NCBI GenBank assembly: GCA_004297985.1
Contig: SCRA01000025.1
Span: forward strand, 1 to 32,016
Direction: 5' to 3'
Source: a bacterium
GTDB lineage: Bacteria; Vulcanimicrobiota; Vulcanimicrobiia; Vulcanimicrobiales; SCRA01
Length of the DNA: 32,016 nucleotides
The position numbers and the translations under genes are program-made. Shown one piece after another: positions 1-31,903 of this stretch. Each line of letters starts with the position of its first letter. Position 1 is the stretch's first letter. The notes below the pieces were generated by a model. The model was not told the origin of the DNA. It was given only the letters and a program-made list of their open reading frames with translations, and did no database searches.

Positions 1-65
1 CGGGCCAGCTCGACGACGTTATGCCGGAACTCCGGCGGGTAGGAACGAGGGTGCTTTCTGGCCAT
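1..65 (-). CDS. IS3-family transposase OrfA, N-terminal fragment (runs off left edge)
   Basis: Only the first 21 codons are inside the window, starting at ATG 65. The peptide contains SYPPEFRHNVVELA, which matches the usual beginning of IS3-family OrfA proteins (a basic start, then Y/PPEFR and VELA leading into the helix-turn-helix). A purine-rich ribosome-binding site lies about six bases upstream. OrfA binds the element's ends and is normally joined by frameshifting to OrfB, the DDE transposase; both would lie to the left. Its position shows that the element points away from darT, with its 5' end next to the darT 3' end. Confidence 0.6.
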   Translation of the reverse strand, partial: MARKHPRSYPPEFRHNVVELA

Positions 66-119
66 TGGTGGACCTTTCTCCGCCAAGCGGAGAGTATCCA
101 CGGAAGCGGGCCAGCTTCA
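1..119 (-). mobile_element. End of an IS3-like insertion sequence
   Basis: The left edge holds one terminus of an insertion sequence. Read on the minus strand, the DarT frame changes at about base 119 from family-typical sequence to a stretch beginning TGAAGCTGGCCC. About 50 bases later a transposase orfA starts, behind a good Shine-Dalgarno (AAAGG). A short hairpin (6-base arms CTCCGC/GCGGAG, 3-base loop, 78-92) lies between the tip and orfA. The exact terminal inverted repeat and the target duplication cannot be confirmed, because the other end of the element lies outside the window. The IS3 family call rests on the orfA N-terminus and the TG-type tip. Confidence 0.6.
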
Positions 120-810
120 ACTCTTTCTTGACCTCGACCTTTGGTCGATGCGCGGCCCCGCTCATAGCGCTTACCACCCTCAACGCGATACCTTGGGAAT
201 ACACTCCGATGCGTTCAACGAGATGCCAAGGAAACGATCGCTGGACGAGGAATTCGGCCTGCTTGGCTTCCTGGATGTCCGCCGGACGAAAATCGCTCGC
301 CGCGACGGCATCCCAATCGATCTCACCCAGTTGATCCAGCCGCGCGCGAAACTGAGTATAGGCCGCCGTCGCATTCGATAGCGAGAACGTCCAGTGCCGC
401 CCGTTCGCCCCCGCCCATTGAACGACCTGATGCAGATCGGCCTCAAGATGCACGATCGGCTGCTGGCCGCCCCGATAGGCAAGGTCCGGGTGGTTCGCGC
501 GGTGGATAACAAACAACATTACTGAACGTGGACAAAAATAGAACGGGACACAATCGCCCACCATCAGACCTTTGTGGCTGGAGACGGCGCGGCCAAGCCG
601 CCACTGCTTGATGCGGCTCATGCCGATGACGGTGATATCCTGACGCCGAACCATGACCGCGTCCGACCATAGGCAACCGTCCGCGATGATCGACGAGATA
701 TTGTCGACGTGCACGATATGGTAGATCTTGGGCTGGGCAGGAATGGACACACTCAGGCTGTTGCCCTCCGTTTGCCATTTAGTCGATAGCCGCTTCGAGG
801 TCATCGCCAT
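19..810 (-). CDS. darT: DarT-like DNA ADP-ribosyltransferase toxin, 3' end replaced by an IS
   Basis: DarT (DUF4433) transfers ADP-ribose from NAD+ to thymidine in single-stranded DNA and is normally neutralised by the macrodomain antitoxin DarG. Hallmarks are visible, numbered from the upstream GTG 837: KIYHIVHVDN (37-46, NAD-pocket His), VPFYFCPRS (97-105) and QAEFLV (193-198), whose Glu195 matches the family's catalytic Glu. ATG 810 is preferred because GGTGAG lies seven bases upstream; the GTG at 837 and ATG at 804 are alternatives. After residue 239 the frame enters the IS and gains about 33 foreign residues, so the usual aromatic ending (...WYY/F) is missing. All predicted catalytic parts remain. 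darG normally follows darT, but here the IS begins at that point, so toxin and antitoxin are separated or darG is lost. Toxicity is not shown. Confidence 0.8.
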   Translation of the reverse strand: MAMTSKRLSTKWQTEGNSLSVSIPAQPKIYHIVHVDNISSIIADGCLWSDAVMVRRQDITVIGMSRIKQWRLGRAVSSHKGLMVGDCVPFYFCPRSVMLFVIHRANHPDLAYRGGQQPIVHLEADLHQVVQWAGANGRHWTFSLSNATAAYTQFRARLDQLGEIDWDAVAASDFRPADIQEAKQAEFLVQRSFPWHLVERIGVYSQGIALRVVSAMSGAAHRPKVEVKKELKLARFRGYSPLGGERSTNGQKAPSFLPAGVPA

Positions 811-966
811 CGAGCGACTCACCGCAGCCGCATGCACATCGAACCTGCCGATGACGACATCGGCAAACTTATGCGCGACCAGCGCGAAGCCCTCGCCGAG
901 CGGTTTCGACCCGGTATGCCGACGAGCTGTGGGAATGCTCCTGGGGCTGCCCGGATTTTCCTTACC

Positions 967-11388: not shown

Positions 11389-11589
11389 TTAAGTTTGGCC
11401 GGCTGGCCGCAGCACCTCGTCTGCAAAGATCCTGACCAGAATACCGGCGATTAGCAAGCACGAGCCCGCGACGGCCAGTTGCCACAAATCCGCCCCCGGC
11501 TCCGACGCAAAAAGACTTACTGCAAAGAGCAGCCCGATCCAGATCAGCAACTGCCCGACGATGAAGAATGGCCGCCTAGTTTCTTTCAT
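11389..11589 (-). CDS. Small two-helix membrane protein (66 aa)
   Basis: No family recognised. From ATG 11589 the 66-aa product starts basic (MKETRRPFF), then has two hydrophobic segments (about residues 8-26 and 37-54), separated by the polar turn SEPGADLW and ending with a short charged tail. A GGGA lies about seven bases upstream. The gene begins inside the last codons of the 1273-aa membrane protein gene (14-base overlap) and in another frame, which suggests translational coupling and supports it being real. A TTG at 11601 is an alternative start. It could be an accessory subunit of the neighbouring GT-C-like protein, judged on position only. Confidence 0.55.
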   Translation of the reverse strand: MKETRRPFFIVGQLLIWIGLLFAVSLFASEPGADLWQLAVAGSCLLIAGILVRIFADEVLRPAGQT

Positions 11590-14500
11590 AGTGGGTCCCA
11601 ACTGGCCTCATGAGATCGAGTACCACTATCGCCAGCATTCCTAGGAATAAAAGGCCGCTTGCTAGCTCCGCCCATGGCACAAACAGGTTAGGGCGATAGG
11701 ATAGAGAGTAGTTCCCGATGAGGCCTCCCGGTACGTACCAGGCATTTAGGAATCCAAAGGCGCGTAGGTGGATTCCCACCTCCGCACCCTTTGAGTCGTT
11801 GAGTACCCACCCCGAATCGTAGCTCTCAGCATAGATGAGCCATTTCGTATCCTTCTTCGTGGAGACGTGGAAACGGCGACCATCGGATTGAATCGGGAAG
11901 AACTCGTGCATTGGCAATATACCACGCGAATAATCCACTGCTAACTGCGCAACTCCCGTCAGCGGCGTATAGATACGGCCATCGAATCTTACTCCTACAC
12001 TCGGCCCTTCCTTGACCTCCGAGCTAACCGCAAGAGTACTGGTAAGCTTTGGCTGACCCGCAATGACGTATGGCTCAGAAAGGCGCACCATTCCCGCGCC
12101 GGGCGTAGTGCCCGCGTTACGTATGACAAGGCGTATACCAACCACGTGGTATCCTGAGCCCAACTCAAGCTCCGGATTCTTCAGATCGAGACGGAGATTG
12201 ACGTCGGGACCCCACAAGCTTGGCTGGGCGGCCAGGGCCTGCTCAGCCTCCTGCCACGTCATCAGCGTATAGGGAGCACCAATCGCATACATGGGCGTGC
12301 CTCGCCCGATGGGTCTAGCGATCCGCAACACTGCAGTGAGGTTCATACCGGAGTGCATGGTCGATGCATCTACTGCTGCAATCCATTGCTTTCTTTGGTC
12401 GATTTTCGGTATCGGCACATCGATCGTCGTTGTCATCAAAGGCGGCACCCGGTAGACAACCGGACCAAAGGGCTGCCGCGCTACTACATTTGTTCCTGGC
12501 GAGATTCTTAGCAGCCCAAACGGTACCGGAATCGCCTCTTGAACCGCCACTCCATGCGGGCTGCCCGTCTTCACCGTAAAGCGTGCCACGGCCGTTCGCT
12601 CAATAGGCCCATCGCTCCGCTGCGTACCGAAATCCCCTTCCCGGTTTGGTACGTGCGCCGGGATGGCGATGACCCCAATACCGTCGAGTTGCAGTTTGTC
12701 ATACGAGTCCATGCGTGCTAAAGCTGGCAACTCCCCAGCCCCTCCAGCAAGAGCCTGCCAAACAAGATTGTGGAGATCCCACGAGCGCATCGAACCTTCG
12801 AACGGCGCAACACCCAAGTATGTGATCCCACTAGTTGGATCTCTCAGCGAGAACAGTGCCATCAAGCGCTGATCCTTAGCGGCGCCAGGAAACGCCGATA
12901 GGGTGACGATTGGATCCGCCCATAACGGCATCTCCTTCACGCTTCGCATCATCCACCGAAGGCCTGTCGCGGGGGCTCCCGCGACTGCTGTCATGGAGAG
13001 GAGGGCAGGATCCGTTGGCCAATTCCATCGCGTCGTTCCGCTAACAGCAACGCTGCTAGCGCCTGACGGAGCGATCCACGATGCCATTAGCACCCCCGCT
13101 CCGTCGGTCGATCCGACACGTTCTCCGTTTACAGAGATCCTGATGTCACGGCTTAGCTCAGGCACCCTGAGCGCGATACGAACCGGCGTTGGTAGCGCAT
13201 TCTCGACCCTATAGACCAAGCTCCCGCTACTCATAGAATCCGCTGCTGGCTGAAGAGAGGACGCAACTCGTATAAAAGTGACCGCGCCATCTCTCCCCGA
13301 CTCGAGCAGAGTCCCCAAGGGCGGCACATCTTGTTTTGATAGTGCCAGCCATGGGCTCGCGGCAAAGAACGCGTCACCCGTCAGCGTCGCAAGTCCATAC
13401 GATGAACGAATAGCCCACGGTCCACCGGGGGGCGCTAGTGCATCGATGATGCTGTCTCCGTCCTCCGGGCCTCTCAAGAGACTATCAGCCGCGACTATCC
13501 AGTCGCTGCGCCGCCACGCGGTCGAAAAACCAATCCGCGCATGCGCTGCAGTCGGCTCGGTCCTCAGCAATGTATCGAAGGGAATACCTGTCCCCGATGC
13601 ATCTCCCGCTAAGACGATCGCACGACCGCTAAGAAGTTCCCTGAACGGGGCCGCAGCAACAAGAGAGCGCTCGTCACCGTCTACAATACTCGCCACATTT
13701 GTCGACCAAATGAGTGGCATAACGTGCCGCACGCGGTAGAGTAGGATATTCCCAATCCGCCCGGCTGCACTGACGGCGTGCGATTCGTCAAGTTCGTGAG
13801 TAATCGTCATCAGCGTATTGCTACCGCCTTGAACCGTCGCGTCGTTCTCGACATCGAGTGGAACGGCTACATAGGACGTCCCTGCCCATGAAAGCAGCTG
13901 ACCAAATAGCGGCGAACGCACATACGAGAGCGCGTCGACTTGACCATCCGTTTCGTTGCACCACGGCCTAAACTCACCGTTCCCGATCGATTGCCCGTCT
14001 ATACCGGGGTGTACTTCAGTTGCGGCATACCATCGAGGCATCTCGGGCAACCAAAGTACTCTACCGAAGCGCTGGTCGCGGCTCATCAACGCGTTGAAAC
14101 GACGATACTCGTCTGGGATGGCGCGGGTGACCGCGATTCCGCCGATGGAGGGGCTAAGGCCATGCCTGACGACCGCAAGTAATGCGAGCGAGATCAGCAC
14201 ACCCATAACGTGCGCGCGTGGCCTTCCCCAACGAATCTCGGCTTCGGAGAACAGCAATGCTAGGAGCATCGCAGATGAGATCAATGGGACAAAACCGAAG
14301 ATTCCCGGGTCGCGATATGCGTCCATTAGCGGAACATGTATAAACATCCAGACGTACGATGCGCCTAACGGCGGGTTTGCACCAGCTGTGAACACGGCGC
14401 CGACTACGTACGTCAGTCCGAAAAATAGGGTCATCTTTCGTCTTGACAGTAGAATCGCCGAAATCGACGCGATAGGGATGAAAGCCCCGATTATCGGCGC

Positions 14501-15397
14501 GTGCTGCATCAGGATGGGCGGGCGCCACCACGCGTTTACAAAGTAGGGATTCCAGGCTGCTAACGAGTCACGGAAGGTAATGACGCTTCCCATTGTCGCC
14601 CATTTGGGGTCGAGATTCCCTGCTGGCACAGCCGGTGCAGAGCCGTGCGCTAGCACGTGAGGAAGCATCCAATACAAGTTCCCCGTGAGGAGACCGATGA
14701 CGAGACTAGCGGCAGCAAGACAGGCGTTCCAGAACACCTGTATCGAGCGATGACACCACCAAGCGGCCGTGGCGAAGGCGGCGGCGAAAAGCACCGTAGG
14801 CGGCACCCACCGAAGGTCGTGAGCCCCTTGAGCTGCGATGGCAATAGCCAATACCGCGAACCATGCTGGCCGGCGCGACCTTACCAATTCAAGCGTCGCG
14901 AGCAGCACCCAAGGTACCATCGCTGTTGCGTTTGTAAAATTTGGCTCGCCACCAAGCGCAACAGTAAGCACCCAACCGTTTAGTAGTACGAATAGCGCTG
15001 CGAGGCCGCTTGCGAGGCGACGGTGCGTAATGCGATATGCAAGCAGGTAGATTCCCGTCAATAGCGCCGGCGGAAATAGCCAAAAGAATAGGATACGCTC
15101 ACCGATCGCATAGCCGATGCCAATGTGCGATAGCCAGCCAAAAATACTGTAAAATGGCGCCCATAACGGCGTCCCGATTCCAAGACCGTACTGGGGCAAC
15201 CATAGTGAGATGAACGGAAATATGTGCGATACTGTTTCTGGCTGGAGCACCTTAAAATCGCCGAAGGTGAGAAAACCCTTCGAAAAATACCAGTTCCGAA
15301 ATAGATAAAGGGCAAGCCCGCAAACCAGCCAGAGCGGCCACATCTCAGCGGCGACGCAAACGGTCCTGTTTTGTCGCCGCGAAGAAGACCCCTCCAA
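11576..15397 (-). CDS. Very large GT-C-like membrane protein with periplasmic beta-rich region (1273 aa)
   Basis: No exact family recognised. The layout is a polytopic membrane region (about residues 20-405), a soluble region of more than 800 residues with several beta-rich stretches, and one C-terminal helix (about 1240-1262). Loop 1 has TFGDFKVLQP (Asp47), the position where GT-C enzymes keep an acidic catalytic residue. The overall plan recalls mycobacterial AftD/DUF3367-type arabinofuranosyltransferases, which carry carbohydrate-binding modules behind a GT-C core, but no specific signature was confirmed. The end (YDSGWVLNDS ... RAFGFLNAWYVPGG ... GNYSLSY) matches in style the end of the 784-aa protein in this locus. 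The start is TTG 15397, four bases after the acyltransferase stop with GGAG upstream, or ATG 15343, which has no ribosome-binding site. The likely role is extracytoplasmic glycosyl transfer, by inference. Confidence 0.6.
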   Translation of the reverse strand: MEGSSSRRQNRTVCVAAEMWPLWLVCGLALYLFRNWYFSKGFLTFGDFKVLQPETVSHIFPFISLWLPQYGLGIGTPLWAPFYSIFGWLSHIGIGYAIGERILFFWLFPPALLTGIYLLAYRITHRRLASGLAALFVLLNGWVLTVALGGEPNFTNATAMVPWVLLATLELVRSRRPAWFAVLAIAIAAQGAHDLRWVPPTVLFAAAFATAAWWCHRSIQVFWNACLAAASLVIGLLTGNLYWMLPHVLAHGSAPAVPAGNLDPKWATMGSVITFRDSLAAWNPYFVNAWWRPPILMQHAPIIGAFIPIASISAILLSRRKMTLFFGLTYVVGAVFTAGANPPLGASYVWMFIHVPLMDAYRDPGIFGFVPLISSAMLLALLFSEAEIRWGRPRAHVMGVLISLALLAVVRHGLSPSIGGIAVTRAIPDEYRRFNALMSRDQRFGRVLWLPEMPRWYAATEVHPGIDGQSIGNGEFRPWCNETDGQVDALSYVRSPLFGQLLSWAGTSYVAVPLDVENDATVQGGSNTLMTITHELDESHAVSAAGRIGNILLYRVRHVMPLIWSTNVASIVDGDERSLVAAAPFRELLSGRAIVLAGDASGTGIPFDTLLRTEPTAAHARIGFSTAWRRSDWIVAADSLLRGPEDGDSIIDALAPPGGPWAIRSSYGLATLTGDAFFAASPWLALSKQDVPPLGTLLESGRDGAVTFIRVASSLQPAADSMSSGSLVYRVENALPTPVRIALRVPELSRDIRISVNGERVGSTDGAGVLMASWIAPSGASSVAVSGTTRWNWPTDPALLSMTAVAGAPATGLRWMMRSVKEMPLWADPIVTLSAFPGAAKDQRLMALFSLRDPTSGITYLGVAPFEGSMRSWDLHNLVWQALAGGAGELPALARMDSYDKLQLDGIGVIAIPAHVPNREGDFGTQRSDGPIERTAVARFTVKTGSPHGVAVQEAIPVPFGLLRISPGTNVVARQPFGPVVYRVPPLMTTTIDVPIPKIDQRKQWIAAVDASTMHSGMNLTAVLRIARPIGRGTPMYAIGAPYTLMTWQEAEQALAAQPSLWGPDVNLRLDLKNPELELGSGYHVVGIRLVIRNAGTTPGAGMVRLSEPYVIAGQPKLTSTLAVSSEVKEGPSVGVRFDGRIYTPLTGVAQLAVDYSRGILPMHEFFPIQSDGRRFHVSTKKDTKWLIYAESYDSGWVLNDSKGAEVGIHLRAFGFLNAWYVPGGLIGNYSLSYRPNLFVPWAELASGLLFLGMLAIVVLDLMRPVGTHYERN

Positions 15398-20266: not shown

Positions 20267-21640
20267 CTAGACTCGCTCCACCGTATCACGTAGTGGCTCG
20301 AGACGAATCGAGGGTAGCGTCCCAACATTCACTCCTTCCGGTGCAAGGAGCAATGGTAGACGCCGCACGGACAAGTCATTGCCACGCTCAATCAATATCC
20401 ACGAACCGTCAGCCTGTGCGCAAAGGCGTGGTCCTCCCCGAATGATTGTCGCATCAATCAGCTCGGCCAGATCCATGGCAGTTGATGGTACTGCACGCGC
20501 CAGTCGCGTCTTTCCATAGATCGCCGGTAAGCGGTCCCTCAGAGGCGAGAAGACGAGTTTTGGCTTAAGCGAGAATAGCGGCGTCCACCAGAGTCGGCCC
20601 GTCGGACTCAACTCGATTACACAATCGAAACGATCCTTTAGCGTGCTAAGGTATAAAAACGGCAGACGAAGCCTCGCTAGCCGCCTTCGTTTTACCAAAG
20701 CCCCTTTCTCGACGCGGTCCGCACTTAAGGCAGCGGCGGCACAATAGGTGAAACGATAGCGCTCGCCACGTAACTTTGAGCAGGTTTCGAAGAACTCGTG
20801 CTCGATCACCGAAGTTGCGGCACTATGCGGACTATGTTCCGAAAGCACGAGGACGTCTAGAGTCCGTCGCGCTGCGATTGGCTTTAGTTTGGCAAGGCGA
20901 TCGAGCAAAGGAACGACAAAGCGGAACGGCGAGTATTTCAAACGTAGCCGAACCATCGATGCGAACATGCGAGGTACGGCCGTCTTAACATCGACTGAGG
21001 AGCCCGCACGATCTGCCCAATGGCTCGGCTCTTCTTTTACGCACTTGTCGAGTCGGCGAAGTTGATAGAGCAGATCAACGTCAAAAGAGAAATCTGATGT
21101 CTCAACGGATTCCATGGCGTCCTGGATCGCCGATCGCTTGAAAATCTTCGCTCCACATTGGGTGTCACAGTACGGCAACTTAAAGAGTACTCGTATCAGA
21201 TAGTTAAATCCACGGCTCAGGATTCGACGCTTGAGAGACTGCTGAGTCTCTACGATTGCGCCTTTCTTCCATCGCGACGCGATAACGCCATCGGCGTTGC
21301 CGAGCACATCAACAAGCCGTCGTAATTCTTCGGCTGGTGTCGCTCCATCAGCGTCAACAAACGCAACCACGTCACCGCGGGCGAGATTGAAACCGACGCG
21401 AACTGCCCCGCCTTTGCCAACAACTGCGGGGATATCTGCGAATGTTAGCAGCGGGTCGTGTAGCGCGATGCCACGTAAGATCTCAACTGTGCGGTCTGTG
21501 CAATTATTGGCAACAACGCAGATCTCCGCAGTCGGCAAGGCACTCCGAAGATCTGCCAGAGTTCTTTGAATTCGATGCTCTTCATTATGCGCAGGAACGA
21601 TTACGCTAAGCCACGTCGTTCTCTCAACCAATTGGTGCAT
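20267..21640 (-). CDS. GT2 glycosyltransferase fused to an unrecognised C-terminal domain
   Basis: A 457-aa protein. Residues 10-245 are a DPM1/Alg5-type GT-A domain: LSVIVPAHNEE at 11-21, GKGGAVRVGFN near 75-85, the metal/donor motif VDADGA (95-100), and the CGAKIFKR and FSFDVDLLY signatures. Such enzymes charge polyprenyl phosphate with a sugar. From about 260 to the end lies a second alpha/beta-looking domain (LDVLVLSEHSP ... FDCVIELSPTGR ... KLVFSPLRDR) with no transmembrane helix, which I cannot assign. Its FDCVIELS resembles the core strand of GT-B folds such as GT9. GGAGAG sits six bases before ATG 21640, and the start overlaps murJ by 17 bases. Local GC is low, with one sampled row at 53%. 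Confidence 0.8.
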   Translation of the reverse strand: MHQLVERTTWLSVIVPAHNEEHRIQRTLADLRSALPTAEICVVANNCTDRTVEILRGIALHDPLLTFADIPAVVGKGGAVRVGFNLARGDVVAFVDADGATPAEELRRLVDVLGNADGVIASRWKKGAIVETQQSLKRRILSRGFNYLIRVLFKLPYCDTQCGAKIFKRSAIQDAMESVETSDFSFDVDLLYQLRRLDKCVKEEPSHWADRAGSSVDVKTAVPRMFASMVRLRLKYSPFRFVVPLLDRLAKLKPIAARRTLDVLVLSEHSPHSAATSVIEHEFFETCSKLRGERYRFTYCAAAALSADRVEKGALVKRRRLARLRLPFLYLSTLKDRFDCVIELSPTGRLWWTPLFSLKPKLVFSPLRDRLPAIYGKTRLARAVPSTAMDLAELIDATIIRGGPRLCAQADGSWILIERGNDLSVRRLPLLLAPEGVNVGTLPSIRLEPLRDTVERV

Positions 21641-23255
21641 TGTTGCTCTCCGCGGGGCTCGGCAGTCCGCCCTGCAGCTTATCCTTGAGGAGACGAATCG
21701 TCAGGTCTACTTCTGGCGCGCGAAGCGCCCCCGCTACCGCAAGGAAAGCAAAGGCACCGATCGCCAGTTGTCCCACCAGATACTCGATCCGGGCGAAGAG
21801 GCTCGGAGCGATCGGACCGCTGATGTGCTGGATCCATAAGAGCGTCGCGCCCATCACGAGCGCCGCGCCAACCACCCGCAGCATTGAGAAACTCACGCGG
21901 CGGATCCTCAGTCCCTTCACCAGATGACGCACCAGGAACATCATGGCGACCATCTGCGCGGTCTGGCTCACGCTGTTGGCCAGCAGCAGCCCGCGCGCCC
22001 CAAGCGTCGGCAGCCAGGTGATCGATAGCGCGACGTTGAGCAGCACGCTCCCCACGGCAAAGGCCACCGGCCAGCGCGTCTCGCAGCAGGCGAAGGCACA
22101 GCGCGTCAGCACGATATTCGCGCACAGCGCCACCAGGCCAACCGCCGCGAACGGCAGCAGGCCGGCCGTCAGGTCGGTCGCCGTCGAGCGGAAGGCGCCC
22201 CGCTCGAAGAGCGTGGCCACGATCGGCCGCGCCAGGATGATCAGCGCCACCACGGCCGGCACGCTGATGAAGTTGACCATCCGTATGCCGGTAAGGACTG
22301 TCTCGCGCAGCGTCTCATTATCTTTGCGGGCAAACTGGCGGGAGAGCAGCGGGAAGATCACCGTGGCAATGGCGGCGGCGAAGATCTGCTGGGGGAAGCC
22401 CACCAGTTTGGTCGCGTAGTTCATCCCGCTGATGTAGCCCGGCGAGAGCTGGCTAGCGAAGAAGCGGTCGAAGAACAGCGCCATCTGCCCGGCGGCCGAG
22501 CCGATGATAATCGGTCCCAGCAGGTCGGCGATCTTCTTGAACGCCGGGTCGCTCAAATCGATGAACAAGCGATAGCCCGGCTTGGCGCGCAGCAGCGGCG
22601 GGATCTGCACGGCAAGCTGCAGCGCCAAGCCGATCGCCGTGCCGAACACCAGCGCGAAGATGCCGAAGTGCCCGTGCCACAGAAGCACGCCGCCGATCGT
22701 GGCGAAGTTGATGGCGATGCCCTGCACGGCCGGCGCCTTGAAGCGGTGGTGCGAGTAGAGAATGGCCGAGAGCACGCCCGCCAGCGAGGTGCACATGATG
22801 GTCGGCAGCATGATGCGCGTCATGTGGACGCAGACGCCCATCTGCGGGGCCGGGAAACCTTTGGCCACGAACGGCACGTAGAGCGGCGCCAGCAGCCAGC
22901 CCACCACCACGCCGAAGCCCAGCACGATGACCAGCGCGTTGATCACGCTGCTGGCCACGCGCCACGCCCGCTCCTCTTCGCCGCGCTGCACCAGCTCGGA
23001 GAAGACGGGCACCAGCGCATTGACTAGCGCCCCATTGAAGACGCCGAACAGGATCGTGGGGATGACGGCCGCCGCCAGGAAGGTGTCCATCTCCCACGAG
23101 GTACCGAAGTACTTGGCGTTGATGACTTCGCGCATGAAGCCCAGCATCGTGGAGGCCAGCGTGGCCACCGCCACCAGCACCGTCGAGCCGGCCACCTGTC
23201 GCCGCGTGGGCAGCGGGATAACCTTGCGCCCTGGCTGCGGGCTAGTGAGCGCCAT
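21624..23255 (-). CDS. murJ: MurJ/MviN-type lipid-linked oligosaccharide flippase
   Basis: A 543-aa polytopic protein of the MOP exporter superfamily with about 14 hydrophobic segments. The N-terminal STVLVAVATLASTMLGFMREV and the following AKYFGTSWEMDTFLAA are classic MurJ sequence. Also visible are FNGALVNALVPVFSE, the central YATKLVGFPQQIFAAAIATVIFPLLSR, and LLPFAAVGLVALCANIVLTRCAFA. MurJ flips lipid II, but members inside polysaccharide loci may carry other undecaprenyl-linked glycans. Here it lies between the priming transferase and glycosyltransferases, overlapping both (14 and 17 bases), which argues for service to this glycan. GC is high (one sampled row 68%), unlike the next gene downstream. 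Confidence 0.9.
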   Translation of the reverse strand: MALTSPQPGRKVIPLPTRRQVAGSTVLVAVATLASTMLGFMREVINAKYFGTSWEMDTFLAAAVIPTILFGVFNGALVNALVPVFSELVQRGEEERAWRVASSVINALVIVLGFGVVVGWLLAPLYVPFVAKGFPAPQMGVCVHMTRIMLPTIMCTSLAGVLSAILYSHHRFKAPAVQGIAINFATIGGVLLWHGHFGIFALVFGTAIGLALQLAVQIPPLLRAKPGYRLFIDLSDPAFKKIADLLGPIIIGSAAGQMALFFDRFFASQLSPGYISGMNYATKLVGFPQQIFAAAIATVIFPLLSRQFARKDNETLRETVLTGIRMVNFISVPAVVALIILARPIVATLFERGAFRSTATDLTAGLLPFAAVGLVALCANIVLTRCAFACCETRWPVAFAVGSVLLNVALSITWLPTLGARGLLLANSVSQTAQMVAMMFLVRHLVKGLRIRRVSFSMLRVVGAALVMGATLLWIQHISGPIAPSLFARIEYLVGQLAIGAFAFLAVAGALRAPEVDLTIRLLKDKLQGGLPSPAESNNAPIG

Positions 23256-23925
23256 CGCCTCGCACCACCGCTGGGATGGTTTTCAGCAGAATCTTCAGAT
23301 CGCCCAGCGGCGTCCAGCGGTCCACGTAGCGGTTGTCCAGCGCCATCCACTCATCGAAGGTCACGCTGGAGCGCCCGTTGACCTGCCAGGAGCAGGTGAT
23401 GCCCTGCTGGACCGAGAGGCGGCGCATGGCGAACGCATCGTAGCGCTCCACTTCGCAGGGCAGCGCCGGGCGCGGGCCAACCAAGCTCATGTCGCCCTTG
23501 AGCACATTCCACAGTTGGGGCAGCTCGTCGATGCTGGTGCGCCGCAGCACGCCGCCCAGCGCATGCAGACGCGGATCGTCGATCACCTTCAGCACGGGGC
23601 CGGGCACGTCGCTGTAGGCCCGCATCCGCTCGTGCTCCAAGTGCGCGCCGTCGTACATGGTGCGCAGTTTATAGAAGCGGAAGCGCCGCCCGCCCTTGCC
23701 GACGCGCTCCTGCACGAAGAAGGGGTTGCCGGGCGAGACGGCCACGATGGCCAAGGCCGCGACAACGATGATGGGCAGCGCAACGATCAGCGTTAGCCCC
23801 CCGATGACCAGATCGGTGGCGCGCTTCCAGATCAGCCATGAGCGGGGAACGGCACGCGCACGAAGCGCGGCGACTGGCCGCGCGTTGGGTAATGTCTGAA
23901 CCTCGTCCGCGTATGACGTTCGCAT
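23242..23925 (-). CDS. Undecaprenyl-phosphate sugar phosphotransferase (priming enzyme)
   Basis: A 227-aa monotopic phosphoglycosyl transferase (WcaJ/PglC-like short form). It starts polysaccharide synthesis by moving a sugar-1-phosphate to undecaprenyl phosphate. It has one hydrophobic re-entrant segment (about 37-62), then FVQERVGKGGRRFRFYKLRTM, DDPRLHALGGVLRRTSIDELPQLWNVL with the catalytic Asp-Glu pair, and KGDMSLVGPRPALP. The end (GITCSWQVNGRSS...DLKILLKTIPAVV) is family typical. The N-terminal four-helix region of long WcaJ proteins is absent, which is normal for the short form. ATG 23925 has TAGGG about five bases upstream and follows deoB after 16 bases. It overlaps murJ by 14 bases. 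Confidence 0.92.
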   Translation of the reverse strand: MRTSYADEVQTLPNARPVAALRARAVPRSWLIWKRATDLVIGGLTLIVALPIIVVAALAIVAVSPGNPFFVQERVGKGGRRFRFYKLRTMYDGAHLEHERMRAYSDVPGPVLKVIDDPRLHALGGVLRRTSIDELPQLWNVLKGDMSLVGPRPALPCEVERYDAFAMRRLSVQQGITCSWQVNGRSSVTFDEWMALDNRYVDRWTPLGDLKILLKTIPAVVRGDGAH

Positions 23926-25146: not shown

Positions 25147-25707
25147 CTAGCGGTGCCGTCCAACGATATCAACCGCCATGATGTCGGCGGCGGCGACGAT
25201 GGCGGAGTGGTCGAGCGAAAGTTCCTCGATGCCATACGCAGTAATGGCATCGTGTCTCCAGAGTCCGACGCTTACCCAACGCGCATCACAGTACGACCAC
25301 CAAGCCACACCCAGCCAGCGTCTCTCGTTCCAGATGGCCAGGGCCCAGCGTCGCGTGATCTCATAGTCGCGCGTGATGACCAGCGATGGTCGTAGGTTTC
25401 GTTGGCGCAGCTCGTCGGGCGCGTCCAGATTGCAGATGGGAGCATCATCCGGAAGGTCGTACCAGGCAAGGACGCGCCGGTCCCCAGTGGACAGCGGCTG
25501 GAGCATCTGCGCCTCCCATCGCTGCCGCTGGTTACCGCGGTAGAAGACCTCCGCGCAGACACCGGCGGCACTGTTGCCGACGTAGAGCGCACCGTAGTGC
25601 GATGGGTTGTCGATGCGGCCCCGGCCTTGCGCGGGGACATAGAGAGCGCCGCCCCGTTCGGTCGGGGCGGCGTTCTCATGATAGAAGAGCACTCGGTACA
25701 GCCTCAC
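25147..25707 (-). CDS. RES-domain toxin (NAD+-degrading family)
   Basis: An 186-aa RES-family toxin; characterised members such as MbcT deplete NAD+. The start is GTG 25707, overlapping the antitoxin TGA by four bases (GTGA); a longer frame to 25824 runs through the antitoxin gene and is not believed. The conserved polar residues appear as GRGRIDNP (Arg31), ALYVGNS (Tyr42) and CAEVFYRG (Glu53), the Arg-Tyr-Glu set of the family. The rest (LAWYDLP, NLDAPDEL, ITRDYEITRRWALAIW, GVAWWSYCDARWVSVGLW) fits RES proteins. No frameshift or stop is seen, so the toxin looks intact. It is transcribed with its antitoxin and could read through into deoB. Confidence 0.85.
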   Translation of the reverse strand: MRLYRVLFYHENAAPTERGGALYVPAQGRGRIDNPSHYGALYVGNSAAGVCAEVFYRGNQRQRWEAQMLQPLSTGDRRVLAWYDLPDDAPICNLDAPDELRQRNLRPSLVITRDYEITRRWALAIWNERRWLGVAWWSYCDARWVSVGLWRHDAITAYGIEELSLDHSAIVAAADIMAVDIVGRHR

Positions 25708-26138
25708 ACGAGCACCCCGGCGTAGATCCCCTCCAAGGCTTCGATGATGGGGCCCGGCCCTTCTCGGGCGAGCACATTGAGCGGGATGCGCTCGGCGAGC
25801 AGCGGTTCCGGCGAGGTGAGCCACGGTCCGATTTGGCCGGCGTGCATCGCGCGAATCGCGCGGTCGAGAATGTACTCCAGGTCACTGACGCGCCGGGCGA
25901 GCTCTGAACCGACTGCTTCGGTTCCCTTGAGGCAGCGGTTCAGTTGAGAGCGATCCACGTTGAGCATGTCGGCGGTCGTATTGAGCCCAAGCGCCGTGAC
26001 CAGGCGAGCCAGCTTGGGCAGGGTTGGGAAGGCCTGCTCGGCTCCTGGACGCAGCTCGACTGGGCGGTTTGCGCCCTTCCACGGACCCAGGCGCGAGGCG
26101 CGTTTTTTTCGGGCTGTGGCCGCAGGTCGTTCGGTCAT
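25704..26138 (-). CDS. Xre/MbcA/ParS-type antitoxin (DUF2384)
   Basis: A 144-aa antitoxin partner of the downstream RES toxin. ATG 26138 has GGGGGAG about five bases upstream; the longer frame to 26705 crosses hicB and is rejected. The basic, disordered N-terminus (about 1-30) is followed by a helical DNA-binding region (LPKLARLVTALGL, then DMLNVDRSQLNRCLKG, helix-turn-helix-like). The C-terminal Xre/MbcA toxin-binding domain (DRAIRAMHAGQIGPWLTSPEPLLAERIPLNVLAREG) carries the usual W-L-x-x-x-P-x-L pattern. Antitoxins of this group repress their own promoter, and an inverted repeat lies just upstream at 26161-26183. The order antitoxin-then-toxin with a four-base overlap is standard for this system. 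Confidence 0.85.
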   Translation of the reverse strand: MTERPAATARKKRASRLGPWKGANRPVELRPGAEQAFPTLPKLARLVTALGLNTTADMLNVDRSQLNRCLKGTEAVGSELARRVSDLEYILDRAIRAMHAGQIGPWLTSPEPLLAERIPLNVLAREGPGPIIEALEGIYAGVLV

Positions 26139-26262: not shown

Positions 26263-26487
26263 ATGCAGCTCGAGTCCACCGCGGTCTTCCAACCCGTCGC
26301 GGAAGGTTTCATCGGCTTCAACGAGGAGCTTCCAGGCGCAAACACCCAGGGGGCTACACTAGACGAAGCTCGCGAGAACCTCCGCGAGGCGGTTCGGCTT
26401 ATCGTGGAAACGAATCGCGCTCTTGCCGAAGAGTCGATCAGCGGACCAGCCGTCATTCGCGAATCGCTGGCCATCACGGCCGCGTGA
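26263..26487 (+). CDS. hicB: HicB-family antitoxin
   Basis: A 74-aa protein with the HicB partial RNase-H-like fold. TAVFQPVAEGFIGFNEELPGANTQG is followed by the helix ATLDEARENLREAVRLIVETNR, which is the family signature, and then a short tail. HicB binds and blocks the mRNA interferase HicA. The chosen start is ATG 26263, with only a weak ribosome-binding site. A better one (AAAGGAG, 26223-26229) stands before an out-of-frame ATG at 26234, so the true start is somewhat uncertain. The gene's last bases overlap a GTG that begins a shortened hicA (GTGA). It is divergent from the Xre/RES module. Confidence 0.8.
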   Translation: MQLESTAVFQPVAEGFIGFNEELPGANTQGATLDEARENLREAVRLIVETNRALAEESISGPAVIRESLAITAA

Positions 26488-26604: not shown

Positions 26605-28344
26605 ATGATGACGCGCGCAATAGCGGCACTCTTCTTGATTGTCCTCTGCATGGTATCCACGGAGCCGTCCCGTGCCGCCATGCCCTCCCCGGCGCCTTCG
26701 GCCACTGCGGTTGGGCCTGCGGATGTGGGTGCGCCTGCGCCGGAGGCGTTTCGCGTGAGCGCCGATCGCTTGGCGTATTACAGCGATCGCTACGTGATCG
26801 TAGGCACAGGGCACGTGCAGGTGGACTACGGCAGCGCCGTGATCACCGGGCAGCGCTTCTCGATGGATCTGCGGCTCAACCGTTTCCTGGTGGCCGGAGG
26901 CGTGCATCTGCAGGCCCCGGACGGCGCGTATGACGGTGCCGCCTTCGCCGAGTACATCGACTTCCATCGTTCCTACTTCATCCCGGTCTCCCCGGAGCCC
27001 GACCGCTGGACGTTTCTCGACGGTTCGTACGGCTCGCACAATCCCGGGCGCGAGACGCCTGGCGACACGTTCTTCCTGCCGAATGCCGAAGGCTCCACGC
27101 TCTTCCTGACGGCGCGCACGGCGGAGATCCGCCCGCGTTCCTCGGTGACGTTCCGCCCCGCCACGCTGCTGGCCGCCGGGGACCGCACGCTCCTGCCCAC
27201 GCCCTCGTACGTGCTGAACTTCGCGGCCAACCCGTACTTCGGTCAGAACTCGCTCTCCGGCGCGCAGTTCGACGGCCCGGATTTCGTTCTGGGAGGGCCC
27301 AACCAGCTCGGGGCGCTGCACCTGCGCTACAATGGGCAGGATCGCGCGTTCTTGTCGTTCGAGGAACGGTTGGTAGAGGGCCACGACGGCCAACGCGGCT
27401 ACCTGGTCTTCTCCGGCAATCCGCTCACCCGTCCGGACAAGCAGTTCAACCTCATCGAGTACCACAAGTTCAGCGACCGCACATCCGGGCAGTTAGTGAC
27501 CCAGCTCTTCACCGATCAGCCGGGGCTCTCGCAGCCCCTCTCTTCCTCCGGCTTTGCCACATACCAGCTCGTGCATTCGCTACGCGAGTCGTTCGTGGCG
27601 CTGACGGGGACGCAGAGCGAGGGGAACCTGCTGGCGCCCAATCCGCTGGGCTACTACGGCGATCCCTCCCACGGCATCGTGCCGAATCACCCGTTCAAGG
27701 GATCGTTGAGCTGGACGGGTTTCGCCCACAATCTCGACAAGCACTACAACACGTTCTTCCGCCTGCGCTCGGGGATGGACTACGATCACGACGTGTACGG
27801 CGTACTGCAAGGCCACAACGGCGACGTCTATCCCACGCTCTGGGACCGCTACGTGGGCGCCACGCTCTACACGAAGTCGTTCGACGTGGGGCGCGGGGTG
27901 AAGCTGAACGGCTCGCTGGATCGCCAGCTCACTTCGTACAGCTACCCGCATGTGAACACGTCGACGAGCACCACGCTGACGGCCAGCAAGTTCTTCACTA
28001 CCCACGAGGCCGTGGTGGCCCAGATGCAGTTCGGCGACTCCGTGGATCAGTGGCCGCCATTTTCGCGCAGCGGTGCGCTGCAGCGCAGCTTCATTTTGAG
28101 CAACTACTTCACGCCCAGCCCCGAGTTCTCGCTGCAGCTCTCCTATGAGCACAATGACGACACACCGTCCGTGCTGCCCGTTTTGCCGGGCCAGCTCTTG
28201 ACCACGCGGCCCTCCAATCAGCTCTTGGCGGATCTGCGCGTCCGGCTGACCCGATCGCTGAGTGTGGACATCGCGCGCACCTACTTCTTCAACTTCGGCG
28301 TCCAGAAATGGTCGCCGGGCTTCGCGATCACCTTCGGACCATGA
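26605..28344 (+). CDS. LptD/OstA-like outer-membrane beta-barrel protein, copy 1
   Basis: A 579-aa exported protein. The signal peptide is MMTRAIAALFLIVLCMVSTEPSRAA (cleavage near 25), then a Pro/Ala-rich linker. Residues 48-110 form an OstA/LptA-like segment (FRVSADRLAYYSDRYVIVGTG ... VDYGSAVITGQRFSMDL). The rest is rich in alternating aromatic/polar strands and ends in a Phe-containing strand (FAITFGP), as outer-membrane barrels do. LptD places lipopolysaccharide in the outer membrane, but this protein is shorter than classical LptD and the usual LptD cysteines are not seen, so another export or binding role is possible. It starts at ATG 26605 or 26608, one base after the hicA fragment stop and without a strong ribosome-binding site. 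The next gene overlaps by ATGA. It is a full-length paralogue of the gene at 29158-30654. Confidence 0.7.
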   Translation: MMTRAIAALFLIVLCMVSTEPSRAAMPSPAPSATAVGPADVGAPAPEAFRVSADRLAYYSDRYVIVGTGHVQVDYGSAVITGQRFSMDLRLNRFLVAGGVHLQAPDGAYDGAAFAEYIDFHRSYFIPVSPEPDRWTFLDGSYGSHNPGRETPGDTFFLPNAEGSTLFLTARTAEIRPRSSVTFRPATLLAAGDRTLLPTPSYVLNFAANPYFGQNSLSGAQFDGPDFVLGGPNQLGALHLRYNGQDRAFLSFEERLVEGHDGQRGYLVFSGNPLTRPDKQFNLIEYHKFSDRTSGQLVTQLFTDQPGLSQPLSSSGFATYQLVHSLRESFVALTGTQSEGNLLAPNPLGYYGDPSHGIVPNHPFKGSLSWTGFAHNLDKHYNTFFRLRSGMDYDHDVYGVLQGHNGDVYPTLWDRYVGATLYTKSFDVGRGVKLNGSLDRQLTSYSYPHVNTSTSTTLTASKFFTTHEAVVAQMQFGDSVDQWPPFSRSGALQRSFILSNYFTPSPEFSLQLSYEHNDDTPSVLPVLPGQLLTTRPSNQLLADLRVRLTRSLSVDIARTYFFNFGVQKWSPGFAITFGP

Positions 28345-29153
28345 GAGCGATGCGCGTACTCTTCCTTCTGCTGGCTTTCGCGCTCGCCGCGCCGGCGGCA
28401 GCGCAGGTACCGGCAGCGGCGCAACAGCAGCCGATTCAGATCTCCGGGCAGATCCTCGACGTGCAGAACGGCTATCTCTTCTTCACCACGGGAGACGCCT
28501 TCAAACTCGCGCAGGACGCCAAGATCAATGGTTACCACCTCACCGGCACCCGAGCCGCGCCGCCTTTCGAAGTGGGAACCTATGCCTTGGCCGACCTCGA
28601 TACGGGCAGCAAGAGCATCGTTACCGTGCAGCTCAGCACCGCGCCGATCAAGGGCGGCATCGCTCCGAACCACGTGGACCGCGCCTACGTGGTGGCGCTC
28701 TCGCCGCCCGTCGCCAACCCGGACCTGGTTCCGAAGCAAAGCCAGTACGGCCACGCCGCCGGTTACACGGGGCGCGACGTGCTGGTGACCTTCCGCGTGG
28801 AGGTGCCGCCCAACACGCCCATCGCAAGCGACGTCTTCATCGCTACCGACGTCAGCGACTGGCGCGCCGACGCTATCAAGCTCCATCGCCTCGACGGCTT
28901 GCACTTCGCCGTCACCTCGCGTCTGCCGTCGGGCACGATCATCCACTACCGCTATACGCGCGGCTCGTGGCAGACGGGGGAGCGCAACAAGGCCGGCCAG
29001 GAAGGCCGCGTACGACAATACATCGTCCCCGAGGCCGACACCGCCCAGCGCGACGACACCGTGCCCAACTGGGCCGATCTGCTCCCCGGCGGCGCGGTGC
29101 CGCAGATCCTCGGCGCGCCTCCGACGCCGGCGCCGGTGATCAAGGCGCCATAG
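28341..29153 (+). CDS. Secreted protein with starch/glycogen-binding-like domain, copy 1
   Basis: A 270-aa protein from ATG 28341 (ATGA overlap with the barrel gene). It has a signal peptide MRAMRVLFLLLAFALAAPAAAQ. An N-terminal beta-rich segment contains ISGQILDVQNGYLFFTTGDAF (34-54). From about 146 to 230 there is a beta-sandwich resembling CBM20/CBM48 (E-set) modules: LVTFRVEVPPNTP, DVFIATDVSDWRADA, LPSGTIIHYRYTRGSW. The Trp and YRYTRGSW positions are those used for glucan binding in such modules. No catalytic domain is attached. It ends DDTVPNWADLLPGG and a Pro-rich tail. Its likely place is the periplasm or cell surface, together with the barrel. The ligand is not known. Confidence 0.7.
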   Translation: MRAMRVLFLLLAFALAAPAAAQVPAAAQQQPIQISGQILDVQNGYLFFTTGDAFKLAQDAKINGYHLTGTRAAPPFEVGTYALADLDTGSKSIVTVQLSTAPIKGGIAPNHVDRAYVVALSPPVANPDLVPKQSQYGHAAGYTGRDVLVTFRVEVPPNTPIASDVFIATDVSDWRADAIKLHRLDGLHFAVTSRLPSGTIIHYRYTRGSWQTGERNKAGQEGRVRQYIVPEADTAQRDDTVPNWADLLPGGAVPQILGAPPTPAPVIKAP

Positions 29154-29157
29154 CGCC

Positions 29158-30654
29158 GTGCTCGAGACCTTCGCTGCGAGCCAGATCGCGCTCTACGTCA
29201 ACGCGGGGGTCATCGAGGGGCGCGGGCCCGCACAGGTGGACCTGGGCAACGGCCGACGCGCGGACGCCGACGCGTTCGCCTACGACTTGCGTTCGGGGCG
29301 TCTAGTGTTGGCGGGCCATGTGGATCTCACGCAGGACGGCGGCAAGGCCGCGCTCCACGCGGCCGCCGTCGTGCGCACGCCCAACGGCACGATCTACGCG
29401 CTGGTGACGCAGCCGCGGCCGGTGCGCGAGCGCATCGACCCCCGTACGCTCAAAGCGCAGGATGACGACGTCCCAGGCGACGCCTTCGCCTTCCCCAATA
29501 TCGCGGAGTTGCCGTGGATGGTGGCCGATACGGCGGAGGTCGTTCCTCAGACGCTGGTCACGCTGCGCCACGCCACCTTCCTCTACCCCACGCGCGGCGC
29601 CACCGTGCCCAGCTACGTCTACGTCTTCTCCTCCAATGCGTACTACGGCAACTCCACGCTGCCGTACGCCAGCTTCGACCAGCCCTGGCCCTACCACGGC
29701 GGAGCTCACGCACTCGAGACGGTTCATCTGCGCTACGAGCAGACTGCGGGCGCATCGCTGGGATTCGACCATCGCCTGGTCTTCGGTGACCGCGCCTACG
29801 CACTGCTCTCGCTCGCGCCGCTCACCCAGAGCGATCGCCGCGGCGCGCTCACGATCTACCAACGCATGAGCAACTCGATATACCAGACCTTCAGCGCCTA
29901 CGGCTACCGCCAAGGCGATCCGCTGCGCCTTCCGCAGCAAGCCAGCGCCGCCTTCGGCTACACGCTCACCGACGCGCTGCACCAGTCCTACCTCCAGCTC
30001 TCGCTCAACCAGAGCTACGACTCGCTGGTGGCCGGCGGCGTGCCCAACCATCCCAGCGGCGCGCAACTGGGCTGGTACGGCTACGATCACGCCCTCGGGC
30101 ACTCGGACTTTCACTATCGTCTGCACACCACGCTGAGCTACGGTCACGACGCCTTCGGCTTGGGCTCGCAAGTCGACCCCGCCGCGGCCACCGACGCATG
30201 GACGCGGGGTGCCGGCATTGCGCTGAGCAGTCCGGTCTTCACGCTCCCGCTGAGCATCCAGCTCTCGGCCTACGGCGAGCGCGACCTCTCGTGGTACTCC
30301 ACAGGGCCCGGCTACGGCCGCGTGGGCGACGATCTGGTGCTCACGGCGGCGCGGCGCATCAGCTCGCGCCTGGGCGCCGTGGCCAGCTACCAGGTGCTCG
30401 ACGCTTCGAACCCCGCCGCGCTCTACCGCACCACCGCGCTCAGCCTCACCTACGACGGGCCGGCGCAAACCCAGGTGGTGCTCTCGCTCCAGCACGCCGA
30501 CGACGTCAACGCCGTGCGCGTGCCCTACCAGGCATCGCTCGATCTGCGCCTGCGCATCTCGCGCTACGGCGTACTGGAGATTCAGCGCGCCTACCTGTTC
30601 AACTACGGAGGGCAGACGTGGTCGCCACGCTTCACCTTCTCGCTCTTGCCGTAG
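29158..30654 (+). CDS. LptD/OstA-like outer-membrane beta-barrel protein, copy 2 (no visible signal peptide)
   Basis: A 498-aa paralogue of the 26605-28344 product. Matching blocks include PGDAFAFPN versus PGDTFFLPN, NAYYGNSTLPYASFD versus NPYFGQNSLSGAQFD, VHLRYE versus LHLRYN, GGVPNHPSG versus GIVPNHPFK, and the final AYLFNYGGQTWSPRF versus TYFFNFGVQKWSPGF. The N-terminus begins directly in the OstA-like region (IALYVNAGVIEGRGPAQVDLG). The start is GTG 29158, four bases after the previous stop. An in-frame TGA at 29137-29139 prevents any longer N-terminus, so no signal peptide is encoded, which is odd for an outer-membrane protein. Loss of the 5' end or a non-standard export route is possible. 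The next gene starts inside its 3' end. Confidence 0.7.
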   Translation: MLETFAASQIALYVNAGVIEGRGPAQVDLGNGRRADADAFAYDLRSGRLVLAGHVDLTQDGGKAALHAAAVVRTPNGTIYALVTQPRPVRERIDPRTLKAQDDDVPGDAFAFPNIAELPWMVADTAEVVPQTLVTLRHATFLYPTRGATVPSYVYVFSSNAYYGNSTLPYASFDQPWPYHGGAHALETVHLRYEQTAGASLGFDHRLVFGDRAYALLSLAPLTQSDRRGALTIYQRMSNSIYQTFSAYGYRQGDPLRLPQQASAAFGYTLTDALHQSYLQLSLNQSYDSLVAGGVPNHPSGAQLGWYGYDHALGHSDFHYRLHTTLSYGHDAFGLGSQVDPAAATDAWTRGAGIALSSPVFTLPLSIQLSAYGERDLSWYSTGPGYGRVGDDLVLTAARRISSRLGAVASYQVLDASNPAALYRTTALSLTYDGPAQTQVVLSLQHADDVNAVRVPYQASLDLRLRISRYGVLEIQRAYLFNYGGQTWSPRFTFSLLP

Positions 30655-31235
30655 CGCTGCAGATCCACGCGCAGGTGCTGGCGCTGCAGGACGGGCTGCT
30701 GGTGTTGACCAGCGGCGATGCGCTGCGCGTGGACCCCGCGCTCGACCCCCAGGTGGAGCGCCAAGCCGCACCGGGGCGCTACGTGCTGATCTCGCTCGAC
30801 GAGCGCGGTGTGGTGCGCGCCCTGCGCGTGGGCGATCACCCCTTTACGCAAGGAGAGGCGCCGAGTGCCGTGCCCGCCGCGCTCTTCGTCACGCCGCCGC
30901 ACCGCGCCGCGGAGAGCGCGCAGGAGACGAGCGTGACGGTCACGCTGACGGTGCGCGTCCCCTCTTCCACGCCGCCGAACGACGCCGTCTACGTAGCGAC
31001 GGCGGCGAGCGAATGGAACGCCAATCAAGTGCGCTGCACGCAGCTCGACGGCATCACCTGGCGCTGCTCGCTGACGCTCCCGGACGGCGCGCCGCTGGCC
31101 TATCGCTATACGCGCGGCGCCTGGAGCACGGCGGAGAGCGATCCCGCGGGCGGCCAGCCCGCAGCGCGCACGCTGACCGCGCGCGCCAACCTCACCGCGA
31201 GCGATACGGTGGCGCGCTGGAGCGACCAGCGCTAA
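30618..31235 (+). CDS. Secreted protein with starch/glycogen-binding-like domain, copy 2
   Basis: A 205-aa paralogue of the 28341-29153 product. GTG 30618, inside the last 37 bases of barrel copy 2, gives a credible signal peptide (VVATLHLLALAVALQIHA, cleavage before Gln19); the longer frame to 30198 is antisense-like noise. The N-terminal VLALQDGLLVLTSGDAL (20-36) matches ILDVQNGYLFFTTGDAF of copy 1. The beta-sandwich at about 103-191 has VTVTLTVRVPSSTPPNDAVYVATAASEW split by short variable loops, then LPDGAPLAYRYTRGAW, and it ends SDTVARWSD like DDTVPNWAD. Two cysteines (Cys140, Cys150) are unique to this copy and could form a disulfide. No catalytic domain. Its 3' end converges with the lipoprotein gene, five bases apart. 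Confidence 0.7.
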   Translation: MVATLHLLALAVALQIHAQVLALQDGLLVLTSGDALRVDPALDPQVERQAAPGRYVLISLDERGVVRALRVGDHPFTQGEAPSAVPAALFVTPPHRAAESAQETSVTVTLTVRVPSSTPPNDAVYVATAASEWNANQVRCTQLDGITWRCSLTLPDGAPLAYRYTRGAWSTAESDPAGGQPAARTLTARANLTASDTVARWSDQR

Positions 31236-31240
31236 CGCCC

Positions 31241-31903
31241 CTAGTGTACGCGGACGGGCAACTGCGCCGTCGCGGCGCGCCCGCCGGTGGTGACGGCGGT
31301 GATCTCCAACGTGTAGCCGCGCTTGAGGAAGAACGGGATATGCGGTACGGTGTAGCTCACCGTGAAGACCCCAGCGTCCTCGCGGTGGAAGCCGATCGTC
31401 ATGCCCTCGAGGCTGGCGCGTACGGCCGCGACGTTGGTGGTGGTGACGACTTTGCCGAAGACCCGCTCGCCGGAGCCCGGCGTGTCGTCGGAGATCTCGA
31501 CGCTGAAGATGCGCGGAGGATCTTCCGGCGCGGCGATGCGCCCAGCGTAGCGCCCGTCCTGGGGCACCACGTGCACCTTCGGCCGCGCGGGCGTGGCGGG
31601 CGCGAGCGCCACGATGTCGGTGCGCACGTTATCCGCGGGAGCCAGCGTGGGCTTGGGAATCGGCGTGGCGATGACCTCCACTACCTTGCCTTGGCGCGGT
31701 AGCGGCGTGGGCAACGGCGTCGGCGCCGGGGATGCCGTTGGGGCTGGCGTAGGGGGCGGCGCCGGTGAGGGCGTGGGAGCCGGCGTGGGCGAGGGCGTCG
31801 ATGCCACGACGGCCTGCTGCGCGTTCTGTTTCGCACTGTGAGTGCAGGAGCTGAGCAGCAGGATGCCGGCGAGGAACGGCGCGATGCGGCGGGCGAGAAT
31901 CAC
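31241..31903 (-). CDS. Pro/Thr-rich lipoprotein with C-terminal Ig-like domain
   Basis: A 220-aa lipoprotein starting at GTG 31903. The signal peptide ends in a lipobox LLSSC (Cys20). A low-complexity Pro/Thr/Ala/Ser linker (about 35-70) follows, of the kind that spans peptidoglycan or projects from the surface. The C-terminal 90 residues (PPRIFSVEISDDTPGSGERV ... PHIPFFLKRGYTLEITAVT...AQLPVRVH) look like a single beta-sandwich (Ig/E-set) domain. No enzyme motif is seen and the family is not recognised. It is convergent with the secreted-protein gene at 30618-31235, with only five bases between stops and no clear hairpin terminator there. Confidence 0.7.
   Translation of the reverse strand: MILARRIAPFLAGILLLSSCTHSAKQNAQQAVVASTPSPTPAPTPSPAPPPTPAPTASPAPTPLPTPLPRQGKVVEVIATPIPKPTLAPADNVRTDIVALAPATPARPKVHVVPQDGRYAGRIAAPEDPPRIFSVEISDDTPGSGERVFGKVVTTTNVAAVRASLEGMTIGFHREDAGVFTVSYTVPHIPFFLKRGYTLEITAVTTGGRAATAQLPVRVH

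Follow-up and report, generated by a model that had tools for sequence, protein, structure and literature searches.

The window, that is, the whole stretch of 32,016 nucleotides that was analyzed, contains four forward-strand genes (26605-31235) in the order A1-B1-A2-B2. A1 (26605-28344) encodes a signal peptide, one OstA/LptA-like domain (approximately residues 45-130), and then a predicted outer-membrane beta-barrel of ~450 residues; cysteine is absent after the signal region. B1 (28341-29153) encodes a signal peptide without a lipobox, an N-terminal beta domain of ~90 residues, a predicted C-terminal CBM20-fold domain, and a proline-rich tail. A2 (29158-30654) is a paralog of A1 (33% identity) with the same architecture but no recognizable signal peptide. 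B2 (30618-31235), a paralog of B1 (35% identity), starts with a GTG codon within A2 and has a CBM20-like domain but no proline tail. Inspection by eye identified signal peptides in A1, B1, and B2. In the window and in its nearest relative (locus L004 of the MAG FW021_bin.74, 85% identity), A2 begins directly at the OstA domain (window 29158-29230); the A2 proteins of other genera have a signal peptide. Either an unusual export route, a mis-called start, or decay may account for its absence here.

The A1/B1 junction is a 4-nt overlap (ATGA) that is kept in L004 and represents ordinary translational coupling. B1 and A2 are separated by a 4-nt gap, and A2 and B2 overlap by 37 nt, with the signal peptide of B2 starting inside A2. 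Because the junctions are tight from A1 to B2, the four genes are probably co-transcribed and translationally coupled. A scan for sigma-70 promoters and terminators gave no excess over shuffled sequence. Sequence searches related A1 to A2 with E=3e-45 and B1 to B2 with E=3e-20, a degree of paralogy that is far beyond chance. The first-pass annotation had described two successive barrel-plus-sandwich gene pairs that are paralogous across units, share short motifs, and have the second gene of each unit starting inside the first. All of these claims were confirmed, and the motifs were found as FNFGVQKWSP/FNYGGQTWSP in the A proteins and as YRYTRGSW/YRYTRGAW and DTVPNWAD/DTVARWSD in the B proteins. 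None of the four proteins had a significant family match in Pfam or NCBIfam.

Distribution, pairing, and duplication of the A-B unit

A related-locus search returned L004 as the only relative because the A-B family diverges quickly. A matches were found in 107 of the 117 genomes of the class (66 of the 70 near-complete ones), and B matches in 102 of the 117 (65 of 70), with genes in the relatives called by a simple codon-usage script. A is present in every genome with B, and the two are same-strand neighbors in 97 of these 102 genomes. In all, 65 A and 57 B sequences were gathered. No full-length A was found outside the class by a profile search, and tblastn against phage and plasmid sequences returned nothing. 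Chance or a local oddity, considered as the source of the pairing, was ruled out by the class-wide conservation. Within the class, the A-B pair is nearly universal and not a local trait.

A-B-A-B arrays occur in approximately 18 genomes of several genera and span ~4.6-5.1 kb. One of them, with its units at 2908367-2913202 of the chromosome, is locus L080 of G104, a genome of the window's order that putatively represents Vulcanimicrobium alpinum, where the genes touch or overlap throughout. B and A are not adjacent in G006, where two PQQ-type genes separate them. In maximum-likelihood trees, the first-position proteins form one group for A (support 100/97) and also for B (support 98/98), and the second-position copies fall outside; the mutual grouping of these copies is not fully settled. 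In the simplest reading of the trees, the whole A-B unit would have been duplicated once, early in the class, and the second unit would later have been lost in many genera. The earlier suggestion that the barrel and the sandwich protein work together could have been weakened if they were rarely adjacent in other genomes. The pair proved to be almost always adjacent, and it was duplicated as a unit; both results support the suggestion.

Several variant loci were also seen. A diverged A paralog without B is present at loci L133-L135, L138, and L176-L179 of the sister order (f3), and at L133-L135 it lies between aminotransferase-like and NAD-epimerase-like genes. B-like CBM20-type proteins at L139 (6959-7837) and L140 (4776-5540) adjoin a fructose-bisphosphatase-like gene, and A is absent there. 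An 817-aa A protein with an N-terminal pentapeptide-repeat stretch (PF00805, best E=1.3e-57 among A members) is encoded at L084 (9432-11882).

Relationships of A to Lpt proteins and of B to CBM20 domains

Single A members gave weak Pfam matches to LptD_N, LptC, and OstA_2. The A profile also found an LptD of a sister class (E=1e-8) and, elsewhere within its own class, lptC/lptA-type genes that adjoin lptF. When A was aligned with four sister-class LptD proteins using hhalign, the two families were colinear over 426 columns with 96% probability. The N-domain of the A1-type proteins matched LptC at 93% and LptD sets at 67-82%, compared with 0.1% for porin and BamA controls. Judged from these profile comparisons, the N-domain of A is homologous to LptC/LptA/LptD. 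The barrel part alone matched LptD weakly, at 1-6% for the A1-type and up to 35% for the A2-type. PF04453, the Pfam model of the LptD barrel domain, did not match A, and the same model also misses the true LptD of the class. A PDB sequence search with the A profile found nothing.

The region after the N-domain of A exhibits beta-strand alternation with z values of 2.7-5.2, compared with 5.9 for LptD, 4.5 for a porin, and negative values for soluble and alpha-helical controls. The AlphaFold model of A, which was built from 4 sequences only, is poor (pLDDT 30), so that the barrel cannot be read from it. The best 32 Foldseek matches of this model among 350,542 PDB chains were all LptD, LptA/LptH, or LptC. 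We infer that A is an outer-membrane beta-barrel protein. The first-pass annotation had called it LptD/OstA-like, which agrees with the hhalign and fold matches. When a known family that matches the barrels at full length was looked for, no Pfam or NCBIfam family was above the cut-off for A.

A profile of sister-class LptD detected an LptD in all 72 of 72 genomes, mostly 800-900 aa long and beside an lptF/G-type gene. The window genome's own LptD (contig 2, 67631-69505, 833 aa) adjoins lptG. None of the LptD proteins in the 72 genomes was above the cut-off of PF04453. While that model found none, A itself appeared likely to be the LptD of its genome; this candidate was ruled out when each of the 72 genomes proved to have an LptD apart from A. 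A TTC motif between the N-domain and the barrel is present in 19 of 20 LptD proteins and in 0 of 65 A proteins. Together with the separate LptD, its absence makes A an LptD-like paralog that presumably has a different job. LpxC is present in 70 of the 72 genomes and LptF/G in 72, and the window genome carries a bam-lpx-lptC-lptB-lptF cluster. An LPS-covered outer membrane has been reported for Vulcanimicrobium alpinum WC8-2 of the phylum Eremiobacterota (PMC9758169), and LPS-synthesis genes and BamA had been reported earlier in the phylum (PMC6664022). Since LPS transport is served by its own LptD, A would be free for another cargo. In another genome, the bam-lpx-lpt cluster includes a gene for an 873-aa SLH-domain porin-like protein (PF00395; L075, 14844-17465).

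In the members of the B family, a signal peptide that lacks a lipobox is followed by a small beta domain and then by the sandwich at the C-terminus. The Pfam CBM_20 model matched 3 of 27 B members weakly (best E=0.0022), and its gathering score was not reached by the B proteins of the window. In the AlphaFold model of B, the sandwich part has a pLDDT of ~50-80, with the best parts at 70-81. The top Foldseek matches of the sandwich were all CBM20-bearing proteins (glucoamylase, STBD1, CGTase, and beta-amylase; best E 1.9e-6). A PDB sequence search with the B profile or with the sandwich alone found nothing. On the basis of the model, the C-terminal domain of B is a CBM20 by fold, in agreement with its initial description as a CBM20/48-like sandwich. 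CBM20 domains classically bind starch-type glucans. The tryptophans of the SxW and GSW motifs, which presumably occupy the expected positions of the site 1 pair of CBM20, are conserved in most B1-type proteins, whereas many B2-type proteins have Phe or Tyr instead. B differs from glucoamylase, CGTase, and STBD1 in that it has no attached enzyme, carries an N-terminal beta domain, and falls below the Pfam cut-off in sequence.

Glycan genes at the loci and a candidate outer-membrane translocon

The 25 kb upstream of the array in the window is a glycan-synthesis locus. Its members include a MurJ lipid II flippase family gene (21624-23255, reverse strand) and an undecaprenyl-phosphate sugar-1-phosphate transferase gene (Bac_transf; 23242-23925, reverse strand). 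At most of the examined loci of the window's order, deoB, the Bac_transf phosphoglycosyl transferase gene, and murJ adjoin A-B in divergent orientation. In the sister order, the genes are co-directional and run from an Ig-like protein through deoB, the phosphoglycosyl transferase directly upstream of A-B, and often a Wzy_C O-antigen ligase/polymerase to A and B. Several junctions of this operon overlap by 1-7 nt (L078, L092, L137, L182-L184, and L187). The Ig-like protein resembles in sequence a proline-rich putative lipoprotein (LLSSC) with a C-terminal Ig-like domain that is encoded after B2 in the window (31241-31903, reverse strand) and has no Pfam match. At most f1/f2 loci, its homologs are encoded downstream of A-B, and in the sister order they open the operon; it is likely to be an accessory protein. 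DeoB is a nucleoside enzyme, so the membership of the operon is not purely glycan-related. The operon with the phosphoglycosyl transferase and Wzy_C is the strongest pointer to the function of A-B, and it strengthens the glycan role that had initially been suggested for the pair.

Other genes of the window are noted here. A 1273-residue protein without a Pfam match is encoded within the glycan-synthesis locus (11576-15397, reverse strand). A RES-domain toxin gene (PF08808; 25147-25824, reverse strand) lies between deoB and A1 and is absent from that place in L004; a likely antitoxin gene without a Pfam match lies upstream of it (~25704-26130, reverse strand). A short HicB-like/UPF0150 antitoxin-type frame, below the Pfam cut-off and with no obvious HicA, is located just upstream of A1 (26263-26487, forward strand). 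At the window edge is a gene for a DarT-type DNA ADP-ribosyltransferase (PF14487, E=1e-60; 19-837, reverse strand).

We propose, with about an even chance of being correct, that A and B form an outer-membrane translocon dedicated to one surface polysaccharide or glycolipid, with B as the periplasmic glycan-handling partner. Synthesis of the cargo would start with the neighboring phosphoglycosyl transferase. By analogy with the docking of LptA, LptC, and LptD, the single OstA domain of A may receive the cargo in the periplasm, and the barrel would then pass it to the cell surface. B would act in the periplasm, where its CBM20-fold domain may keep the sugar portion of the cargo close to the mouth of the barrel; alternatively, B might gate or plug A in the way that LptE does with LptD. 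Each of the two A-B units probably acts on its own glycan or at its own stage. Some observations argue against a translocon, namely the weak match of the barrel part alone to LptD, the low pLDDT of the A model, the f3 subfamily in which A has no B next to it, and the B-like domains without A.

The closest working analogy is EpsX/EpsY of Myxococcus, a composite OPX/beta-barrel translocon linked to a Wzx/Wzy-type polysaccharide pathway (PMC9601211). There, too, a barrel and a periplasmic partner are co-encoded and linked to a polysaccharide pathway, and the transferase-(Wzy_C)-A-B operons likewise encode the barrel together with a polyprenyl-phosphate glycan pathway. However, the EpsX/EpsY barrel is AlgE-like and its partner is an OPX protein, whereas the barrel of A is predicted to be LptD-like and its partner has a CBM20 fold. 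OPX exporters (Poly_export, PF02563) are present in 46 of the 70 near-complete genomes and were not found in 24, a result in favor of the translocon, and no OPX match lies at an A-B locus. Given the 46 genomes that have them, A-B is no simple replacement for OPX.

Usually, LptD is described as one protein whose partner is LptE. A resembles it in its OstA/LptA-type N-domain and in the predicted barrel that comes after this domain, but A is shorter (~500-650 aa versus ~830), and its partner is the CBM20-fold B without a lipobox instead of the LptE lipoprotein. A could nevertheless be a second LptD that is fed by the ordinary Lpt bridge and places a particular LPS form (e.g., O-antigen-capped) or another glycolipid, with B recognizing the sugar part. 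The OstA domain, which is of the type that docks on LptA/LptC, the lptB, lptC, and lptF genes of the window genome, the LptF/G proteins throughout the 72 genomes, and the Wzy_C O-antigen ligase-type protein of the sister-order operon would fit such a role. In Borrelia, an Lpt system without LPS cargo has been described, and its LptD-type protein was proposed to carry other glycolipids (PMC10353723); it is the only LptD reported there, whereas A is an extra paralog with a dedicated partner. We consider a second LptD unlikely because the TTC motif is missing from A, A is located away from the lpt genes, and no LptE-like lipoprotein is linked to it.

Slightly less likely still is a structural or biogenetic role without transport, in which B is a folding factor or plug for A, or serves to anchor a glycan to the outer membrane. 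Translational coupling and co-duplication would suit an obligate chaperone or plug, and the loss of aromatic site residues in second-type B proteins suggests that binding may not matter. The initiating transferase and Wzy_C encoded in the operon point instead to a glycan path, and a CBM20 fold is not needed for plugging. An uptake system, in which B captures alpha-glucans and A is an importing porin, would be in line with the classical starch binding of CBM20 and with the fold match of B, but it is improbable. Genes for a hydrolase or a SusD-like protein were seen neither within the pair nor next to it, the signal peptide of B has no lipobox and hence predicts no surface anchor, and OstA domains belong to export. 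The universal conservation and the linkage to glycan synthesis are also ill-suited to a catabolic locus.

A second LptD-like lineage that is spread through the class and has a partner and a glycan-synthesis operon of its own would mean that the outer-membrane design of the Lpt system has been reused for another cargo. It would also reveal part of the envelope machinery of a phylum from which very few members have been cultured. A bolder version, which we regard as possible but doubtful, is that an LptD paralog gave rise to a separate class of glycan translocons with a sugar-gripping CBM20-fold periplasmic subunit, and that, near the root of the class Eremiobacteriia, duplication of the module gave two specificities. 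Such a translocon would add one more route for surface polysaccharide to those through OPX pores, OPX/barrel composites, synthase barrels, and LptDE. The first-pass annotation had not recognized the pairing with an OstA-type barrel as described, and we likewise found no description of an LptD paralog paired with a CBM20 protein in the open-licence full-text literature. The function of A-B can be tested now, since the cultured Vulcanimicrobium alpinum, putatively G104, carries both units.
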